Source: Mesorhizobium sp. (lineage in GTDB: Bacteria > Pseudomonadota > Alphaproteobacteria > Rhizobiales > Rhizobiaceae). Taken from it: a stretch of DNA of 64,000 nucleotides. The position numbers and the translations under genes are program-made. The stretch covers positions 95,379 through 159,378 of the forward strand of contig SUGL01000013.1 of NCBI GenBank assembly GCA_004963905.1, given 5' to 3'. Below are positions 7,847-25,170 of the stretch, piece by piece (position 1 is the stretch's first letter; every line of letters starts with the position of its first letter). Under the pieces are notes generated by a model. The model was not told where the DNA came from. It was given only the letters and a program-made list of their open reading frames with translations, and made no database searches.

Positions 7847-8695
7847 ATGACACTCTACCGGGCCAACCCGAAAGACGGTGTCGCCTGGATCACGGGCGGC
7901 AGCAGCGGTCTTGGCCGCGCGCTGGCCAAGGACCTCGCAAGGCAGGGCTACACTATCGCGGTGACGGCGCTGCCGAGCGATCCGGTCGAGACACTGCTGG
8001 TCGAGACGGCGCAGATGGCCGGCCATGTGAGGTCCTTCCCCTGCGACGTGACCGATGAAGACGGGATGGCACGGACGGCCGCCGCCATCGAGACGGAGAT
8101 GGGGCCGATCGTGCTCGCCGTCTTCAACGCCGGCAACTACATCGCCACTCCCGGCGAGCACCTCGTGGTGCGCGATTTTCACCGATCCTTCGCCGTCAAT
8201 TATTTCGGCATCGTCAACGGTCTGGTGCCCGTGGTCGATTATATGCGCACGAGGGGGCGCGGGCATGTCGTCCTGGTCGGATCGGTGACGGCTTATTCCG
8301 GCTGGCCGACCACCGCCGCCTATGGCGGCACCAAGGCGGCGATCAACATCCTGGCGGAATCGCTGAAATACGACTTTGACAAGATGAACATCCGCATCCA
8401 GGTGATGAATCCGGGCTTCGTCGATACGCCGCTGACCGAAAAGAACATGCTGCCGATGCCGGGTCTGATGCCCGTGCACCGGGCGTCGCGGCGCATGGCG
8501 CGCGGCATCAGGAAGGGAGGATTCGAAGTCACCTTCCCCTATCACATCAGCTGGCCACTGAAGCTGCTTGGCCTGCTGCCGCGGCCCTTCGGCCGACTGG
8601 TGATCGGTCTGACCACCAGTTGGTGGGCGCGGCCGCTGTATTTCGACCGCAAGATGCCGGGCAAAAAAGCTCCGTCAGCGGACAAGGCAACCTAA
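7847..8695 (+). CDS. Short-chain dehydrogenase/reductase (SDR)
   Basis: 282 residues from the ATG at 7847 (MTLYRANPKDGVAWITGGSS); longer in-frame starts run into the repeat upstream and are unlikely. Classical SDR features are present: the cofactor loop TGGSSGLG near residue 16, an NAG motif (FNAGNY) near residue 89, and the catalytic Ser followed by YGGTK (Tyr-x3-Lys) near residues 146-164. The enzyme would be an NAD(P)-dependent oxidoreductase. The substrate cannot be predicted. The C-terminal 40 residues are hydrophobic and basic (FPYHISWPLKLLGLLPRPF), suggesting peripheral membrane association. It is transcribed alone. Confidence 0.88.
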   Translation: MTLYRANPKDGVAWITGGSSGLGRALAKDLARQGYTIAVTALPSDPVETLLVETAQMAGHVRSFPCDVTDEDGMARTAAAIETEMGPIVLAVFNAGNYIATPGEHLVVRDFHRSFAVNYFGIVNGLVPVVDYMRTRGRGHVVLVGSVTAYSGWPTTAAYGGTKAAINILAESLKYDFDKMNIRIQVMNPGFVDTPLTEKNMLPMPGLMPVHRASRRMARGIRKGGFEVTFPYHISWPLKLLGLLPRPFGRLVIGLTTSWWARPLYFDRKMPGKKAPSADKAT

Positions 8696-8736
8696 AAGCG
8701 CGCCGCGCTGAAACGGATTCAGGCGACGCGCTTTTA
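8693..8736 (+). terminator. Palindromic terminator that includes the SDR stop codon
   Basis: TAAAAGCGCG (8693-8702) pairs with CGCGCTTTTA (8727-8736), with a partly paired interior. The first TAA is the SDR stop codon. The symmetrical A/T flanks would let it work in both directions. Confidence 0.7.
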
Positions 8737-8857
8737 ACCCCTTGTTTCTATGCATGTCGTTTTCGCAAAACCGCTGCACAGTTTGCGTGACATGCGAAGA
8801 GCGATTGCCTCTCGGCAGGCACCGCCATAGGTTGAGAATTGTTGCTTGGAGTCGGCG

Positions 8858-9832
8858 ATGGGGCGGCGGATCGTGCTTTCGATACTTGGTCTCGCCGTCA
8901 TCCTTGTCGCAGGTTTCTTCCTCGGCCCACGCGTGGCGGCCGACACGACGATCCGCTTCGATCCTTCGGTGATCGGCGACGATCCGCAGGCCTATCTGGC
9001 GCGCGAGGAAGCCGCGGTGCCCAATATCCGTGACGGGTTGGACAAGGAGATCATCTGGGCGAACCCCTTGGTTCACGCCAAGACGAAGCTTGCGATCGTC
9101 TACATCCACGGGTTTTCGGCGTCGAAGGGCGAGGTCCGCCCGCTGCCGGACGACGTCGCCGACGCGCTCGACGCCAACCTGTTCTACACCCGCCTGACCG
9201 GCCACGGGCAGGACGGCGCGGCCATGGCCGAGGGCAGCGTCAACGCCTGGATCAACGACTATGAGGAAGCGCTGGCGATCGGCCGCGCGATCGGCGACAA
9301 GGTGATCGTCATCGCCACCTCGACCGGCGGCTCGCTGGCGACCTGGGCGGCAACACAGCCGGGCGCCTCCGACGGCGTGGCGGCGATCGCGTTCATCTCG
9401 CCGAATTTCGGCGTCAAGGCGTCCGGCGCCGAGATCCTGACCATGCCCTGGGGCAGAGCGATCGCCGAGCTCGTCGGCGGCAGGGAACGCAGCTTTCCCG
9501 CGCGCAACGCGCTGCACGAAAAATACTGGACGACAAAATATCCGATGGCGGCGACGCTGCCGATGGCGGCGCTCACCGATCTCGCCTATGGCGCGCCGGT
9601 CGAGAAGGCGACCATCCCTGCCCTGTTCATCTTCTCGGACGCCGACAAAGTGGTGCGGCCTGACCGCACGCGCGAGATCGCCGGCCGCTGGGGCGGTCCG
9701 CACGAACTGGTGCCGGTCGACGACACCGGCGATCCGGACAACCATGTCATTGCCGGCGATGCGCTGTCGCCGCAGACCACGGGCTTTCTCACCCAACGGA
9801 TCGTGGTGTGGGTGAAGGCGCTGATGCCGTAG
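8858..9832 (+). CDS. Alpha/beta hydrolase with N-terminal membrane anchor or signal
   Basis: 324 residues from the ATG at 8858, with TTGGA about 8 nt upstream; a TTG at 8846 is the alternative. Residues 5-20 (IVLSILGLAVILVAGFF) form a signal peptide or membrane anchor, so the catalytic domain is probably periplasmic. The alpha/beta fold is seen in IVYIHGFSASKGE (oxyanion HG, about residue 80), the nucleophile elbow IATSTGGS (about 150-157), the acid in FSDADKVVRP and the His in DPDNHVIAG. The elbow is T-S-T-G-G rather than strict G-x-S-x-G, which is tolerated in some families. The substrate is unknown. Confidence 0.8.
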   Translation: MGRRIVLSILGLAVILVAGFFLGPRVAADTTIRFDPSVIGDDPQAYLAREEAAVPNIRDGLDKEIIWANPLVHAKTKLAIVYIHGFSASKGEVRPLPDDVADALDANLFYTRLTGHGQDGAAMAEGSVNAWINDYEEALAIGRAIGDKVIVIATSTGGSLATWAATQPGASDGVAAIAFISPNFGVKASGAEILTMPWGRAIAELVGGRERSFPARNALHEKYWTTKYPMAATLPMAALTDLAYGAPVEKATIPALFIFSDADKVVRPDRTREIAGRWGGPHELVPVDDTGDPDNHVIAGDALSPQTTGFLTQRIVVWVKALMP

Positions 9833-17996: not shown

Positions 17997-19406
17997 ATGA
18001 CGACAGCCAAAGACATCATGAAGCAGATCAAGGACAACGACGTGAAGTTCGTCGACCTGCGCTTCACCGATCCGAGGGGCAAGCTGCAGCATGTGACGAT
18101 GGATGTCGTCGAGGTCGAGGAAGACATGTTCGCCGACGGCGTCATGTTCGACGGCTCCTCGATCGCCGGCTGGAAGGCGATCAACGAGTCCGACATGGTG
18201 CTGATGCCGGACACGGATACCGTCCACATGGATCCGTTCTTCGCCCAGTCGACCATGGTCATCCTGTGCGACATCCTCGATCCGATCTCGGGAGAGGCTT
18301 ACAACCGCGACCCGCGCGGCACCGCCAAGAAGGCCGAGGCCTACATGAAGTCGGAAGGCATCGGCGACACGGTCTATGTCGGCCCGGAAGCCGAGTTCTT
18401 CGTGTTCGACGACGTCAAGTACAAGGCCGACCCTTATAACACCGGCTTCCGGCTCGACTCGACCGAGTTGCCGTCCAACGACGACACCGACTACGAGACG
18501 GGCAACCTCGGCCATCGTCCTCGCACCAAGGGTGGCTATTTCCCTGTGCCGCCGATCGATTCCTGCCAGGACATGCGCTCCGAGATGCTGACCGTGCTCG
18601 CCGAGATGGGCGTGCGCGTCGAGAAGCATCACCATGAGGTCGCCGCCGCCCAGCACGAGCTCGGCATCAAGTTCGACACGCTGGTGCGCAACGCCGACAA
18701 GATGCTGATCTACAAGTATGTCGTGCACCAGGTCGCCAATGCCTATGGCAAGACGGCCACCTTCATGCCGAAGCCGGTGTTCGGCGACAACGGCTCGGGC
18801 ATGCACGTCCACCAGTCGATCTGGAAGGGCGGCAAGCCGACCTTCGCCGGCAACGAATATGCCGGCCTGTCGGAGACCTGCCTGTTCTATATCGGCGGCA
18901 TCATCAAGCACGCCAAGGCGATCAACGCCTTCACCAACCCGCTCACCAACTCCTACAAGCGCCTGGTGCCTGGCTACGAAGCGCCGGTGCTGCTCGCCTA
19001 CTCGGCGCGCAACCGTTCGGCGTCCTGCCGCATTCCGTTCGGCTCGTCGCCGAAGTCGAAGCGTGTCGAGGTCCGCTTCCCCGATCCGGGCGCGAACCCC
19101 TATCTCGGCTTCTCCGCCATGTTGATGGCCGGCCTCGACGGCATCAAGAACAAGATCCATCCCGGACAGCCGATGGACAAGGACCTCTACGACCTGCCGC
19201 CGAAGGAGCTGAAGAAGATCCCGACCGTCTGCGGCTCGCTGCGCGAAGCGCTGCAGAGCCTCGACAAGGACCGCGGCTTCCTGAAGGCCGGCGGCGTCTT
19301 CGACGACGACCAGATCGACAGCTATATCGAGCTGAAGATGGCCGAGGTCATGCGCTTCGAGATGACGCCGCACCCGGTCGAGTACGACATGTACTATTCG
19401 GTCTAA
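17997..19406 (+). CDS. glnA: Glutamine synthetase type I
   Basis: 469 residues, starting 59 bp after glnB in the same operon. It condenses glutamate and ammonia to glutamine with ATP; the enzyme is a dodecamer. GS signatures are seen as [12 protein letters not shown] near residue 50, the [19 protein letters not shown] loop near residue 258, and [13 protein letters not shown]. Tyr398 in DKDLYDLPP is the adenylylation site used by GlnE, so this is the regulatable GSI-beta form. The stop codon lies in the sequence duplicated at 23906-23921. Confidence 0.97.
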
Positions 19407-19408
19407 GC
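19393..19408 (+). repeat. Direct repeat, copy 1 (3' end of glnA); candidate att site
   Basis: ACTATTCGGTCTAAGC covers the last codons and stop of glnA. AGTATTCAGTCTAAGC at 23906-23921 matches 14 of 16 positions. The two copies bracket the accessory block, as expected for insertion at the glnA 3' end, but no integrase is present. Confidence 0.45.
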
Positions 19409-19432
19409 GGCTGCATTTCCAGACAAAAAGGA

Positions 19433-19450
19433 CCCCGGCGAAAGCCGGGG
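19433..19450 (+). terminator. GNRA-capped hairpin after glnA
   Basis: CCCCGGC-GAAA-GCCGGGG is a 7-bp stem with a stable tetraloop, 26 nt after the glnA stop. It is followed by TTCTC, so the T-tract is weak. Confidence 0.6.
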
Positions 19451-19537
19451 TTCTCAGGCTTGACAGCTAGCGAAAGCCTGCTCGCGGCATTCGACTGACA
19501 TAGGCCCTTAATGGGCGCCATGATGCCGCGCTTCAAT

Positions 19538-20014
19538 TCATTGGTGCGGGGCACCTTCAATGTCGTGCATCCTTGCGAATCGACGTATGTGAAAGAAGGT
19601 GTCCGGTCCAGAAAGGGCTTCTTTCATTGTGGTAACGGCAAAGTCATTCTTGTGTATATCGCGGATGACCTCTTTGAGATATAAGCCGTACACATCGCGA
19701 GTGACGCCGTGAAGAGCGCCCTTATTGTAAAAATGGCAAGCGCTTTCAATCAAATTCAGAATCTCGGCAAACTCATATCTCTTCCAATCATCATCGCTTG
19801 TCTGGCGGAACCTGCGCCATGCAGTAGAGAACCTGTCAGATAGCGATAAGAAACTGGCGAAGTCTTGAGCCTTTGATTGGAGACGTAAGCTCCTTGCGGT
19901 CCAGAGCAACGTCAAGATACCGACTAGCAGAAGGCAAGCATTGACCCAATCGCCGGGGGTCATTCCCGCTAGGAACCAGCCCAGCCAAGAGTCCTTCGCG
20001 ACGGCCTCCGACAT
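19538..20014 (-). CDS. Hypothetical single-pass membrane protein
   Basis: 158 residues from the ATG at 20014. Residues about 20-45 (WVNACLLLVGILTLLWTARS) form one transmembrane helix. The remainder (FASFLSLSDRFSTAWRRFR onward) is a helical soluble domain, giving a short N-terminus, one helix and a cytosolic C-terminal domain. I do not recognise the family. Similar one-helix proteins with DUF4760-like C-terminal halves occur in bacterial accessory islands, but that assignment is only a guess. It follows the Gly/Ser-rich gene by 13 bp and is likely co-transcribed. Base composition is less GC-rich than the flanking gln genes. Confidence 0.55.
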   Translation of the reverse strand: MSEAVAKDSWLGWFLAGMTPGDWVNACLLLVGILTLLWTARSLRLQSKAQDFASFLSLSDRFSTAWRRFRQTSDDDWKRYEFAEILNLIESACHFYNKGALHGVTRDVYGLYLKEVIRDIHKNDFAVTTMKEALSGPDTFFHIRRFARMHDIEGAPHQ

Positions 20015-20027
20015 GGCGAGCTGCGGC

Positions 20028-20267
20028 CTACTTCTTACCGCTGCCAGAGCTCCCGCTTCCGCCCGAACTGCCGCCAGAGTTTCCGCCATTGGAGCCGCCG
20101 CCAGTATTACCGGTAGACGCAGTCGGGTTGGGACCGAGAGTTCCCGTATGATGGGCAGTCGTCATCGAATTGATGCTTATCTGCGTTTCACTTACAACGG
20201 TGACGTGAGTGTCGCCAAGGCCTGGCCGAGAGACAGTTGGCCTACTTCCTGCATTCTCTTTAGACAT
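20028..20267 (-). CDS. Small Gly/Ser-rich hypothetical protein
   Basis: 79 residues from the ATG at 20267, with GGAG about 8 nt upstream; an in-frame alternative start at 20333 lacks such a site. The N-terminal 50 residues are ordinary (VSRPGLGDTHVTVVSETQ), and the last 28 are almost all Gly, Ser and Asn, ending in a GSGKK tail. It has no cysteine and no clear signal peptide, so a classical bacteriocin is not supported. It precedes the membrane protein gene by 13 bp on the same strand, and the two are probably one transcript within the accessory block. Confidence 0.5.
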   Translation of the reverse strand: MSKENAGSRPTVSRPGLGDTHVTVVSETQISINSMTTAHHTGTLGPNPTASTGNTGGGSNGGNSGGSSGGSGSSGSGKK

Positions 20268-20446
20268 CCGATCATCTCCGGAATCATCACTGCCATTTTG
20301 AGTGCGCTCGGAATATAGGCGAGCGCAACCCATCTAGCCAGCGCATCGCACAGAACAGCCTAAAGCTTTGCCGAATAGAGCATGCGTAGAGGTGCCACCT
20401 TCTTATATTTGCGTCTGAGTAGACTCAAACTCGATTGGGTACGAAA

Positions 20447-22366
20447 ATGGACGACCACGGAGAGGCACGGAAATCATATGGCTCTGATCGCGCGCAACTT
20501 GTCTACGGGCGGCGTGACGATGACACCTTGGCCCATATTTCCGAAGTTCAGCGCGGTCTGGCTTGCGGTTGCAAATGTCCGGCGTGCGGCGGCCGTCTAA
20601 TTGCGCGATTGAAGGATGATCATGTGGTGCCGCACTTCGCTCACAATGACGGCGAAGCTTGCGGTGGTGGTCCTGAAACGGTCCTGCACCTGCTTGCCAA
20701 GGAAGCGTTTCGCACCAATCCGAAGATGCACCTGCCGGAGCGGCTTGGCCTCGATAAGGGGAAGGTCGTGATGAAGCCGGGGCAGGAAGTCGAGACGGAA
20801 CTCCTGCGGCTTGAATATTCCGACCCGAAGAAGATCATTCCGGACCTCTATCTTAGGGCTCTCAGCTATGACCTCTTCGTGGAGGTCGCGGTTACGCATG
20901 CCAGCGACGACACCAAGATTCAGCGGCTCCGCGAGCACGGAACGATGGCCGTCGAAATTGACCTTTCAAAGCTGCCGCGAGACGCGACACGCGAGCAAAT
21001 CGCAGATGCTGTCCAGCAATCTGCGCCGCGCCGCTGGCTGTATCACCCAGGTATCGAGGCGGCGAAGGCGAAGAGCCGCGCCGACGAAGAGAAATGGCAC
21101 GCGGCACAAGCGAAGCGGTACGCCGATTATCAAGCAAAGCACCATCGACGGGTTGAAGAATTGGCGCGCGCCTATGCGGAAGCGCTGACACAACTGGCCG
21201 GTAAGAATGCCACCGTTCCCCGTTACGCTGAACTTCAAGCTATCGGGCTCGCTGAACATGTTGGTATCAAAGTCGCAGGTTACGGCTGCTTTACGGTGCC
21301 GCCCGCAGACTGGCAGGCCGTCATCATGGTGGAGGTCTTTCACGACAAGTGTTTAGGAGGCGGCATTTGCAAGGCTGTCCCGATCGCCAAGCACCTGGAA
21401 AAGCGCCGTCTGATACGGCCACAGTTCCAGCGTGTTTCACGCGAGATCGCACAGGATGTTGCGGTGGCCGAATCGCGTTTTGCGCCGGCATGGAAGGCAA
21501 TCGACAGCTATTTGCAGCATCTGCTCGGCAAGGCTGTGCTGGTTGAGCAAGGCTACGGCGTGATTCTGGAGAAGGCCCTTTCAGACAAGTGGACTGCCCA
21601 CACGCTGGCAAAGACACGTAGAACAGCAGTCATGCATGCTGCCGTGCAGGCAGTGGATTGGATACTTGATCAACTCCCCGAGAAGGAGCGAGGGAACATG
21701 ACCGGCGAATCGTGGCTGAACTCCATACACACGGAGTCGGGCATGACATACCGTGCTGCGATTCAGTCGGAGATCGAAGCAGCGACGATCACTGCTGAGA
21801 TTAGCGCCCTTGTCGCGATGTTTGAAAATGGTGGCCGGCTTGCATACGCGACCCTAGGACTGCCTGTTGAAGGCGCAATCGAGCGCCACAGGGTGCAGTT
21901 AGGAAAACAGGTCGAAAAGGTCCGTGAGAAGCAGATTCAGGAAGCGAACCGGCTTCGACAGTCACGGCGGGATCGGCTTTGCATTGACGCTGAAACGGAA
22001 CTGAGCGGTCCCGGTCTCGGGGCATTTCTGAACACGAAGCGCGACGATCTGAGTGGAATGACGCCGTTGGAAGCGGCAGAGGACAGCGAGTCGGGACTGG
22101 CCCGAGCGCGCAGTATGCTATCCGATTTGGTGCGGCAGCGGGCAAGCGTAGCTGACGCCGATGCCGAGCGAAAACGGTATCAGCAGATGATAACCGCCGA
22201 CGCAATGCGGTCTTTGCCGCCTGAACACATCGATGCCTTCCTGAACGGCCGGGATGACGATCTAGGACGGACGACGCCACTCCTGTTCGCAAGGGACGAA
22301 GACACATATCGCAAGGCACTTAAAAAATTATCGGAATGGCAGCGTGAGTTTGGTGGCCCAGTATGA
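20447..22366 (+). CDS. CoiA-like nuclease with two C-terminal MbcA/ParS-like motifs
   Basis: 639 residues from the ATG at 20447; a TTG at 20435 is the alternative. The N-terminal zinc-ribbon CGCKCPACGG (near residues 37-46) is followed by HFAHNDGEACGGGPET, both typical of CoiA. A PD-(D/E)xK-like core follows, with Pro132-Asp133, Glu146 in VEVAVTH and Lys157. The middle is a long Ala/Lys/Glu-rich helical region. Two similar segments near 524-560 (FLNTKRDDLSGMTPLEAA) and 596-632 (FLNGRDDDLGRTTPLLFA) resemble the C-terminal domain of MbcA/ParS/Xre proteins. CoiA proteins are known in DNA uptake, but this context suggests defence. It overlaps the HNH gene by ATGA, so the two are translationally coupled. 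Nuclease activity is inferred. Confidence 0.7.
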   Translation: MDDHGEARKSYGSDRAQLVYGRRDDDTLAHISEVQRGLACGCKCPACGGRLIARLKDDHVVPHFAHNDGEACGGGPETVLHLLAKEAFRTNPKMHLPERLGLDKGKVVMKPGQEVETELLRLEYSDPKKIIPDLYLRALSYDLFVEVAVTHASDDTKIQRLREHGTMAVEIDLSKLPRDATREQIADAVQQSAPRRWLYHPGIEAAKAKSRADEEKWHAAQAKRYADYQAKHHRRVEELARAYAEALTQLAGKNATVPRYAELQAIGLAEHVGIKVAGYGCFTVPPADWQAVIMVEVFHDKCLGGGICKAVPIAKHLEKRRLIRPQFQRVSREIAQDVAVAESRFAPAWKAIDSYLQHLLGKAVLVEQGYGVILEKALSDKWTAHTLAKTRRTAVMHAAVQAVDWILDQLPEKERGNMTGESWLNSIHTESGMTYRAAIQSEIEAATITAEISALVAMFENGGRLAYATLGLPVEGAIERHRVQLGKQVEKVREKQIQEANRLRQSRRDRLCIDAETELSGPGLGAFLNTKRDDLSGMTPLEAAEDSESGLARARSMLSDLVRQRASVADADAERKRYQQMITADAMRSLPPEHIDAFLNGRDDDLGRTTPLLFARDEDTYRKALKKLSEWQREFGGPV

Positions 22367-23028
22367 AGCGGCGAATACGTTGGGATAATTGCGGCCTATG
22401 CGGTGAACTTCGGATCACGACTCGCGAGCATGTTGTGCCGCGCTCCCTCTATCCGGCATCGAAGTCGAACAGCAGATTCCAGCGCATCACGATCGCAGCA
22501 TGTGCCACATGCAACAATGGCACGGCCGACGACGACGCGCATTTCCGAAACGTCGTCCTTGTGGCCGGCGAGGCAATCGATGCCGTCAAAGAGTTATGGT
22601 CCGGTCCGGTGCGTCGGGGCTTCGCTCAGGTAGACGGGCATCGCCGCGCTCGCGACATCTTCGATCTTATGCGACCCGCACCGGACGTTGGACCGAACCG
22701 ATATCGCATTTTCCCGGCCGAAGACCCGCGTATTCTCCAAACCGTGCGCAAGATCATTCGCGGCCTGTCGCGGCACCACGGACTCGCCTACCCGCTCAGT
22801 GACGGTCAGGTGTTTGCTGACGTAATGCGGCAAACGATACCGGAGGAAATTCTTGCCGCTATGGAACACAACGCTGCGGAACCCGATGTCCTTGAATACG
22901 GATATCTAAGCCTAGACGAGCCCCACGGCCTTTCGTCAGCGTGGTTTCTCCGGTTCTTTCAGCGGACAACCTTCATCGGCTTTGTGTTTGCCAGCGAAGC
23001 AGCCCGACAGCAGCACATGGGACACTAG
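22363..23028 (+). CDS. HNH-type endonuclease-like protein
   Basis: 221 residues. The N-terminal 55 residues hold a treble-clef HNH core: Cys10-x2-Cys13, then REHVVPRSLYP with Glu22-His23, then Cys47-x2-Cys50-Asn51-Asn52 (AACATCNN). The spacing and the EHVVP(K/R)S motif are characteristic of HNH endonucleases. The remaining 165 residues have no recognised domain and may give specificity. The start codon overlaps the CoiA-like stop in ATGA, so both proteins are probably made together. Its GC content is lower than the flanking gln genes. The fold call is good and the cleavage activity is inferred. Confidence 0.75.
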   Translation: MKRRIRWDNCGLCGELRITTREHVVPRSLYPASKSNSRFQRITIAACATCNNGTADDDAHFRNVVLVAGEAIDAVKELWSGPVRRGFAQVDGHRRARDIFDLMRPAPDVGPNRYRIFPAEDPRILQTVRKIIRGLSRHHGLAYPLSDGQVFADVMRQTIPEEILAAMEHNAAEPDVLEYGYLSLDEPHGLSSAWFLRFFQRTTFIGFVFASEAARQQHMGH

Positions 23029-23059
23029 GACCAGACAGGCATTTGGGGAGGATCACTAC

Positions 23060-23128
23060 ATGACAATTGAGTTGGACCACGAGAACGCGAGAAAAATCCT
23101 TCGCTCCGACAGCGCGCAACTCGTCTAA
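23060..23128 (+). pseudogene. 22-codon ORF, probable remnant of a second CoiA-like gene
   Basis: A short frame with a strong GGGGAGGA ribosome site 7-8 nt before its ATG. Its peptide MTIELDHENARKILRSDSAQ...LV aligns with the N-terminus of the CoiA-like protein (D-H-x2-A-R-K-x3-S-D-x-A-Q-L-V, about 11 of 17 identical). The nucleotide sequence is also similar through GCGCGCAACTCGTC, then TAA replaces TAC, and similarity stops. I read it as a truncated duplicate or recombination scar. A functional leader peptide for the next gene, 24 bp downstream, is the alternative. Confidence 0.5.
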
Positions 23129-23152
23129 CCTTTTCGCCCGACGAGGAGCCCT

Positions 23153-23845
23153 ATGACAGCACCCATCGAAAGCTCGCCGATGGAAAGCAACGCCGAAGAG
23201 GACTACGCGGAGGATCGCGAATACGTCGTCGTGCCCGAAGAGGCGATTCAGTTCCTGCCTCCCGAATGGCGCGATGCGTTCCAGTCGAAGGTGGAAGATA
23301 GCCGAGCTATTTTGGAAGCCGTCGATAGCGACATCAAGAATCTAATTCGACTTGTCGGTGCCTTTCAGGGGATGGCGAGTCTTAGCTACATTCACCATCG
23401 CCTCTCGAAGGCAGATTTCAACTCGACCACTGAGGCGATATTGGAGCACGACATGCTCACGTCCGCTTTTGTGATCGCCTATGTTCGGCTGATTGATGGC
23501 GGCATCGGAAGTGGTGTTTCCCGGAAAACTCTTCCACCTCACCTTCGCAAAGCGCATGACGAAATCATCGAACTGCGAAATAAGCGATTCGCCCACAACG
23601 CCGGGCACCGGTCGGTCGATGGAAAGCTCGACATCCTTTTCGGCGACGGCCGTTTTGACGTGAGCGTGACCATGCAGGTGGGCTACTACGTCCGGGGCGC
23701 CAACGAATGGGGAGAGTTGGTGACTTTTCTCAATGGGTTGATGTTCGATCGGCTGACCAAGCTGCTTGAACGGCTAAAGGACAAAACCGGATGCGAATGG
23801 ACATTCCCGAGCGGGCCACCACCGGCTTGGAGCGATTCCCGATAG
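23153..23845 (+). CDS. Hypothetical protein with HEPN-like RNx4H motif
   Basis: 230 residues from the ATG at 23153, with GAGGAG 5-6 nt upstream. The first 25 residues are acidic, and the rest is predicted mostly helical. The segment ELRNKRFAHNAGH places Arg142 six residues before His148 after a helix, the pattern of HEPN ribonuclease or nucleotide-binding domains common in toxin-antitoxin and abortive-infection systems. The rest of the protein has no recognised family. It follows the CoiA-like/HNH pair on the same strand and may be part of the same functional unit. The HEPN reading rests on one short motif. Confidence 0.5.
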   Translation: MTAPIESSPMESNAEEDYAEDREYVVVPEEAIQFLPPEWRDAFQSKVEDSRAILEAVDSDIKNLIRLVGAFQGMASLSYIHHRLSKADFNSTTEAILEHDMLTSAFVIAYVRLIDGGIGSGVSRKTLPPHLRKAHDEIIELRNKRFAHNAGHRSVDGKLDILFGDGRFDVSVTMQVGYYVRGANEWGELVTFLNGLMFDRLTKLLERLKDKTGCEWTFPSGPPPAWSDSR

Positions 23846-23905
23846 CGACGATGGAAAACACTCTCATTGGATAAGTTGTTTGCCTTCTGCCACCGATCGA
23901 CAAAT

Positions 23906-23921
23906 AGTATTCAGTCTAAGC
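23906..23921 (+). repeat. Direct repeat, copy 2 of the glnA 3' end; candidate att site
   Basis: AGTATTCAGTCTAAGC repeats ACTATTCGGTCTAAGC (19393-19408) with two mismatches. It lies 20 nt before a strong terminator that could have been the original glnA terminator before the block was inserted. Confidence 0.45.
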
Positions 23922-23940
23922 CTCTGGCCCGATTGCATTT

Positions 23941-23977
23941 AAGCCCTTGGAAGGCATTCCTCTTCCGAGGGCTTTTT
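23941..23977 (+). terminator. Strong rho-independent terminator
   Basis: AAGCCCTTGGAAG (23941-23953) pairs with CTTCCGAGGGCTT (23962-23974) with one G-U pair, followed by TTTTT. It ends the accessory block or, if the block is inserted, was the original glnA terminator. Confidence 0.88.
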
Positions 23978-24057
23978 GTTGCGGACGTCACCGCCGCAGC
24001 GCATCGGTCAAGCTGGCGGCAAGAATCGGCGCGAATCGGCCCTGCAACAGACAGAAA

Positions 24058-24086
24058 AAAGCCCCGGCGTTTTCCGCCGGGGCTTT
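24058..24086. terminator. Bidirectional terminator between the accessory block and glnII
   Basis: AAAGCCCCGGCG (24058-24069)/CGCCGGGGCTTT (24075-24086) is a perfect 12-bp stem with loop TTTTC. A-tracts on the left and T bases on the right serve both strands; it ends glnII on the minus strand. Confidence 0.88.
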
Positions 24087-24129
24087 CTTGCTTGAGACAG
24101 CGCGCGGGCTTTCACCCGCGCCGGAGAAA

Positions 24130-25170
24130 TCAGGCCGCCGCCGAAACCTTGGCGTCGGTCGGGACCTGCGAGATCGTCTTCAGGACCTGCGAGGCGATCT
24201 GGTAGGGGTCGCCCTGCGAGTTCGGGCGGCGATCTTCCAGATAACCCTTGTAGTCGTTCTTGACGAAGGAGTGCGGCACGCGGATCGAAGCGCCGCGGTC
24301 GGCGACGCCGTAGGAGAACTTGTTCCACGGCGCAGTCTCGTGCTTGCCGGTCAGGCGCTTGTCGTTGTCCGGGCCGTAGACGGCGATGTGGTCCATCAGG
24401 TTCTTGTCGAACTGCGCCATCAGCGCCTCGAAATAAGCCTTGCCGCCCACCTCGCGCATGTAGGCGGTCGAGAAGTTGCAGTGCATGCCCGAACCGTTCC
24501 AGTCGGTGTCGCCGAGCGGCTTGCAGTGGAATTCGATGTCGATGCCGTATTTCTCGGTCAGGCGCTGCAGCAGGTAGCGCGCCATCCACATCTGGTCAGC
24601 GGCCTTCTTGGAGCCCTTGCCGAAGATCTGGAACTCCCACTGGCCCTTGGCCACTTCGGCGTTGATGCCTTCGTGATTGATGCCGGCGGCCAGGCACTGG
24701 TCGAGATGCTCCTCGACGATCTGGCGCGCGACCGAGCCGACGTTCTTGTAGCCGACACCGGTATAGTAAGGACCCTGCGGAGCCGGATAGCCAGTCTCGG
24801 GGAAGCCGAGCGGACGGCCATCCTTGTAGAAGAAGTATTCCTGTTCGAAGCCGAACCAGGCGCCCTCGTCATCCAGGATGGTGGCGCGCTTGTTGGAGAC
24901 ATGCGGCGTCACGCCATCCGGCATCATCACTTCGCAAAGCACTAGCACGCCGTTGGTGCGGGCCGGATCCGGGTACACGGCAACGGGCTTCAGCACGCAG
25001 TCGGAGCTGTGGCCCTCGGCCTGGTTCGTGGAGGAGCCGTCGAAGCCCCACAGCGGCAGCTGCTCGAGCGTCGGGAACTCGGCAAATTCCTTGATCTGGG
25101 TCTTGCCGCGCAGGCTAGGGGTCGGGACGTATCCGTCGAGCCAGATGTACTCGAGCTTGTATTTGGTCAT
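24130..25170 (-). CDS. glnII: Glutamine synthetase type II
   Basis: 346 residues from the ATG at 25170 (MTKYKLEYIWLDGYVPTPSL); the frame extends upstream without conservation. GSII is the eukaryotic-like octameric enzyme found in rhizobia, not adenylylated, and used under nitrogen limitation. Signatures are WGFDGSSTNQAEGHSSDC (about residues 42-59), WEFQIFG near residue 175, and the NGSGMHCNFST ATP loop near residue 228. The promoter at 25253-25268 (minus) and the NtrC-like palindrome at 25365 indicate RpoN/NtrC control. A gstI-like gene is divergent from it. Confidence 0.97.
   Translation of the reverse strand: MTKYKLEYIWLDGYVPTPSLRGKTQIKEFAEFPTLEQLPLWGFDGSSTNQAEGHSSDCVLKPVAVYPDPARTNGVLVLCEVMMPDGVTPHVSNKRATILDDEGAWFGFEQEYFFYKDGRPLGFPETGYPAPQGPYYTGVGYKNVGSVARQIVEEHLDQCLAAGINHEGINAEVAKGQWEFQIFGKGSKKAADQMWMARYLLQRLTEKYGIDIEFHCKPLGDTDWNGSGMHCNFSTAYMREVGGKAYFEALMAQFDKNLMDHIAVYGPDNDKRLTGKHETAPWNKFSYGVADRGASIRVPHSFVKNDYKGYLEDRRPNSQGDPYQIASQVLKTISQVPTDAKVSAAA

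Follow-up and report, generated by a model that had tools for sequence, protein, structure and literature searches.

CoiA is predicted to process incoming DNA, and its mechanism was stated as unknown in 2005 (Kosinski et al., PMC1189080). In the part of that paper available to us, its active site is described as PD-ExQ, with a conserved Arg at the position of the swapped Lys of COG4636. A CoiA domain also occurs in one of 21 anti-phage systems that came out of a selection in E. coli, according to the accessible portion of the report (Vassallo et al. 2022, PMC9519451). Here we analysed a 64,000-nucleotide stretch of a Mesorhizobium sp. genome (contig SUGL01000013.1, hereafter the window), in which a long CoiA-like gene and an HNH-type nuclease gene lie between glnA and glnII. 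A preliminary description had proposed the two as a candidate paired nuclease unit. Our results suggest that the long CoiA-like form is a predicted CoiA-type nuclease joined to Xre-type repeats, a make-up apparently undescribed in the literature searched, and that the two genes probably move independently of each other and do not form a conserved pair. As far as the consulted portions of the literature on CoiA-like and MbcA/ParS/DUF2384 proteins reach, no description of a CoiA-Xre fusion was recognised.

The CoiA-type zinc ribbon and the PD-(D/E)xK core named in the preliminary description both agree with a family alignment of 32 long members, the window protein included. H30, C44, C47, F64, H66, C72, H81, E123, P132, D133, E146, H151, K157 and E170 are invariant (32/32), which covers the conserved ribbon residues as well as Pro132-Asp133, Glu146 and Lys157. 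The CoiA-like protein shows the core fold of the PD-(D/E)xK superfamily with its Asp, Glu and Lys. Pfam CoiA_N (PF25164) matched 28 of the 32 members at E<=1 (best E 2.2e-7), and only L030 of the ten individually inspected lay above the cut-off; the window protein itself gave E 0.0026 and 17.7 bits, below the cut-off of 26.3. At position 148, within the (D/E)xK motif, 24/32 members have Ala, 3/32 have Lys and none (0/32) has Gln; the window protein reads ExA. Since Ala takes the Gln position in most members and the invariant Lys157 is located on the next helix of the model, the family looks to have a swapped-lysine active-site layout, the last step of which we infer. The ratio of nonsynonymous to synonymous substitution rates (dN/dS, NG86) was 0.14 against the nearest relative, so by sequence comparison the gene looks to be under purifying selection. 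Its C-terminus is complete, judged against the G748 relative.

Beyond the nuclease core, our analysis adds a winged-helix region and Xre-type C-terminal repeats, both of which are absent from the preliminary description. The structure prediction proposed there gave a model of the first protein (mean predicted local distance difference test, pLDDT, 86) with nuclease, winged-helix and Xre matches. Its C-terminus matched 6gw6_B and 9r35_C, and the Xre of the Pseudomonas putida RES-Xre complex is among the structural matches. In a Foldseek search against the PDB no match was obtained at E<=0.001, and no credible solved structure was related to the protein by sequence. The two repeats aligned to each other with hhalign (probability 97.3, E 2.1e-11), and a possible third repeat at residues 380-505 reached a probability of only 52-70. 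Xre_MbcA_ParS_C (PF09722) was detected in 13/32 members at E<=1 (best E 5.6e-9; L139 above the cut-off), and Pfam gave no such match on the window protein itself. The protein could be antitoxin-like, with repeats that bind a toxin, for instance a RES enzyme, whose gene lies elsewhere, as the PF09722 members and the match to the Xre of a RES-Xre complex would allow. We consider this improbable, because the repeats are tandem, the N-terminus is a nuclease rather than an Xre helix-turn-helix, and no RES family turned up when 142 proteins lying no more than 5 kb from 20 CoiA-like loci (the window's own locus not among them) were compared with Pfam, as far as the 25 families listed out of 135 matched show.

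To the question of the pair, 79 loci around CoiA-like genes were scanned, each with at most about 10 kb of flanking sequence and in many cases a shorter stretch. A CoiA-like open reading frame (ORF) was recovered at E<=1e-3 in 78/79, about 30 of them short with an N-terminal match only; the set is redundant, some loci being present more than once. Besides the window, an HNH relative was found in a single locus (1/79), that of Mesorhizobium temperatum (L037, the same as genome G809), where it lies 2.1 kb downstream of the CoiA-like gene on the same strand with three genes between. Seven HNH loci were also examined, and the gene upstream of HNH differed from the window's in 7/7. Both families were present in 4/146 genus genomes (the window's own, G693, G809 and G811), a weak excess with a hypergeometric P of 0.029, which rises to 0.089 once the window's own genome is left out. 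In G693 the two relatives are about 21 kb apart, and in G811 they are on different contigs. A conserved CoiA-HNH unit was therefore rejected, and the survey of pair conservation that had been suggested for it found no unit kept in the scanned loci and genus genomes. The window might still be a rare instance of a two-gene defence unit, to which the ATGA overlap, the four genomes with both genes and the same-strand arrangement in G809 would point; given the 1/79 count, the other genes upstream at six other HNH loci and the distances in G693 and G811, this is very improbable. An ATGA overlap by itself says little about whether two genes work as a pair.

The second protein is HNH-type by motif and a predicted nuclease. 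Of its motif residues, His23, Cys47, Cys50, Asn51 and His60 were identical in 7/7 aligned members and Glu22 was Asp in one, which agrees with the treble clef first described. The alignment row of L023 begins after Cys10/Cys13, and the L023 sequence itself carries both. The fold assignment fared less well, with weak Pfam HNH_5 matches in 2/7 members (best E 0.012) and an unusable structure model from one sequence (pLDDT 34). NG86 dN/dS values were 0.09 and 0.11 with saturated dS, and the gene looks to be under purifying selection. Relatives were found in 8/146 genus genomes (some partial), and in 4/297 family and 2/397 order genomes, own included. In M. temperatum, too, the HNH start overlaps the stop of the preceding gene, there one that is GNAT-like by eye. 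This would suit a mobile HNH gene that tail-gates other genes.

Several HNH relatives were also read in their own settings. In L123 the relative at 8322-9083 adjoins an opposite-strand ORF like a RES-domain toxin, with conjugation-like genes downstream (by eye). The relatives at L026:5890-6691 and L027:5902-6587 are split into two pieces on plasmids typed as conjugative, and the A. vitis relative of this plasmid pair is near a CBASS cyclase.

CoiA-like relatives are patchy, occurring in 25/146 genus genomes and 11/297 family genomes (own included and some partial in both). Long relatives, 21-76% identical in the alignment, were found in Mesorhizobium, Tardiphaga, Methylorubrum, Novosphingobium and others, and short ones covering only about the first 200-260 residues in Bacteroidota, Treponema and metagenome-assembled genomes of Clostridia, among others. 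A competence role in the pneumococcal sense would agree with the CoiA_N match and with the naming of several plasmid relatives as 'competence protein CoiA family protein'. Such a role is extremely improbable in view of this patchy occurrence, the long additional domains and an active site unlike the PD-ExQ given for CoiA in the accessible part of the 2005 paper. At E<=1e-5, 55 plasmid records carried a CoiA-like match, 14 on predicted conjugative plasmids, but only 4 records covered 80% of the query. A phage origin was rejected, as there was no match in phages and no relative was confirmed in viral contigs by pattern-based scans.

Among the loci read, no gene recurred beside the CoiA-like gene. 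Neighbours picked by eye gave strong matches to MkoA (three loci), SngC, DarG and the PDC-M68B candidate, and further ones were GajA with GajB (two loci), AbiEii and ThsB; the other picked neighbours had no match or generic matches only. The defence types near some relatives are Mokosh, Gabija, Shango, DarTG and Thoeris. For an unselected comparison, the same 142 neighbouring proteins were set against 144 control proteins from 18 stretches of the same contigs, using PADLOC at E<=1e-5. The CoiA-like neighbours matched 201 families versus 68 for the control. Because one protein matches up to 45 families and the control also has AbiE-type and CRISPR-associated hits, this difference is suggestive only. 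The window CoiA-like protein itself had no PADLOC match at E<=1.

Two arrangements were seen around individual relatives. In L015, L018 and L138 the CoiA-like relative lies within about 2 kb of the MkoA (Mokosh) gene, in differing orientations. In Methylorubrum extorquens AM1 the CoiA-like gene is followed by a GIY-YIG-like ORF (by eye; L029:9803-10819) that, taken from its first start codon, runs over the 3' end of the CoiA-like gene.

Mobile-element genes were also present near relatives, including TrbI, MobA/MobL, RepC, ScpB, DUF1403 and integrases. With the plasmid records and the predicted processing of incoming DNA by CoiA (PMC1189080, available part), they raise the alternative that the CoiA-like protein assists plasmids or integrative elements by processing DNA in maintenance, entry or recombination, and is not a defence protein. 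We regard this as somewhat unlikely, since no fixed mobile-element partner appeared among the loci read and several relatives adjoin defence genes. Those defence-gene neighbours, together with the CoiA domain in an E. coli anti-phage system, led us to prefer the reading of the CoiA-like protein as an accessory nuclease that acts in defence as a single-gene system, to which we give about an even chance. Its likeliest targets are probably phage or plasmid DNA.

If the CoiA-like protein is such a nuclease, the zinc ribbon and winged helix would bind nucleic acid, and the PD-(D/E)xK core would cut it via Asp133, Glu146 and the Lys157 moved onto the following helix. The two tandem C-terminal Xre/MbcA/ParS-type domains may serve as a module for dimerisation or for binding a partner, and in this way control the nuclease. 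A bolder version, which we think quite unlikely, is that these domains silence the swapped-lysine nuclease and release it only when displaced by a signal from a phage or plasmid, so that toxin and antitoxin would be in one chain. With its start lying across the CoiA-like stop, the HNH gene may be co-translated here without being a conserved partner.

The coordinates of the features are collected in Table 1. Both ORFs of the presumed pair are open, and the four-base ATGA overlap is present as first reported. The less GC-rich block between glnA and glnII was also confirmed: its five genes have a GC content of 0.53-0.59 and a third-position value (GC3) of 0.52-0.65, against GC3 values of 0.91 for glnA and 0.88 for glnII. 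Genome G772, labelled as the same species, matched the window to 19408 at the glnA end and from 24129 on the glnII side, leaving a glnA-glnII gap of about 0.17 kb. No match to the CoiA-like, HNH or 230-aa protein was found in G772. This empty site in a same-species genome indicates that the block is an accessory insertion. In several other strains the shared sequence breaks off at about 19455 and resumes at about 24055, which puts the insertion at about 4.6 kb. A tRNA search of the window found none.

Table 1. Features of the glnA-glnII insertion in window coordinates (aa, amino acids)
Feature	Position	Strand	Remarks
CoiA-like nuclease gene, 639 aa from ATG	20447..22366	+	alternative TTG start at 20435 possible
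CoiA-type zinc ribbon, residues 30-72 (H30, C44, C47, H63/H66, C72)	20534..20662	+	CoiA_N in family members, conserved residues
PD-(D/E)xK nuclease core, residues 75-199 (E123, P132-D133, E146, H151, swapped K157)	20669..21043	+	
Winged-helix region, residues 255-393	21209..21625	+	
Xre/MbcA/ParS-type repeat 1, residues 507-562	21965..22132	+	PF09722 in other members; hhalign to repeat 2
Xre/MbcA/ParS-type repeat 2, residues 575-635	22169..22351	+	
HNH-type nuclease gene (predicted), 221 aa (C10, C13, E22, H23, C47, C50, N51, H60)	22363..23028	+	
Decayed stub like the 5' end of another CoiA-like gene	23073..23127	+	sequence comparison, shuffles
230-aa ORF of the block	23153..23845	+	no assigned family
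183-aa ORF of the block	19538..20089	-	weak DUF4760 match, E 0.0048, below cut-off
Inserted block, limits approximate	19456..24054	.	absent from same-species genome G772

The glnA-glnII gap (19406-24130 in the window) varies across the genus, measuring 0.05-4.9 kb between matches in the 20 genomes besides the window's in which, among the matches listed, both flanks were readable on one contig. It was 0.05-0.33 kb in 14/20 and 1.3-4.9 kb in 6/20 of these. All 6 larger gaps and 4 small ones were retrieved, and in the parts read by eye the six larger inserts held transporter-, regulator- and peptidase-like ORFs together with unknown membrane-protein ORFs. Judged from these contents, the site looks like a variable gap, and a defence hotspot at glnA-glnII was not supported. 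The defence or mobile setting first proposed is plausible for the relatives of each gene. The closest relative of the CoiA-like gene (G748, 76%) sits elsewhere in its genome, not at glnA-glnII.

The stub directly after the HNH gene is closest to the CoiA-like gene of M. temperatum, with 79% identity over 53 nucleotides (E 2e-6 in the local locus set). Against the window's own CoiA-like gene it scored 43, with a maximum of 36 in 1000 shuffles. This comparison suggests that a second CoiA-like gene was once present after the HNH gene. The 230-aa ORF had no Pfam match above the cut-off, and besides its own genome only 1 of the 146 genus genomes gave a match, weak and partial; it carries LRNKRFAHN, which looks HEPN-like. 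At 19538-20333, two overlapping minus-strand ORFs encode 183 aa (the weak DUF4760 match) and 101 aa (with a Gly/Ser-rich tail), and neither had a relative in the 79 loci around CoiA-like genes.

Compared with known systems, the window HNH protein resembles PDC-M01B (E 5.2e-5) and Septu PtuB (E 0.011) over residues 9-56 only, whereas its C-terminal 160 residues are unmatched; PtuA, the ATPase partner in Septu, had no match among the five block ORFs. The modelled C-terminal fold of the CoiA-like protein appears like that of the Xre/MbcA/ParS antitoxins (DUF2384, PF09722) through the 6gw6_B and 9r35_C matches. Unlike them, it is without the N-terminal Xre helix-turn-helix and carries two tandem copies fused to a nuclease; neither an adjacent RES/ParT toxin nor an N-terminal Xre helix-turn-helix gave a Pfam match in the five block ORFs. 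The protein from the anti-phage system that Vassallo et al. reported in 2022 (PMC9519451), as described in the part available, has a CoiA domain in common with the CoiA-like protein. In the CoiA family (COG4469/PF06054; CoiA_N PF25164), too, an N-terminal CxxC...HFxH...C ribbon precedes a PD-(D/E)xK core. In contrast to the PD-ExQ with Arg reported in the accessible text on CoiA, the window family has no Gln at 148 and an invariant Lys157, so the window protein carries ExA and Lys157 in place of PD-ExQ. It also has about 430 further residues, with a winged helix and Xre-type repeats. This long CoiA form, with its different active-site layout and its repeats of antitoxin type, offers a way to test how nucleases of this kind are held in check and set off.
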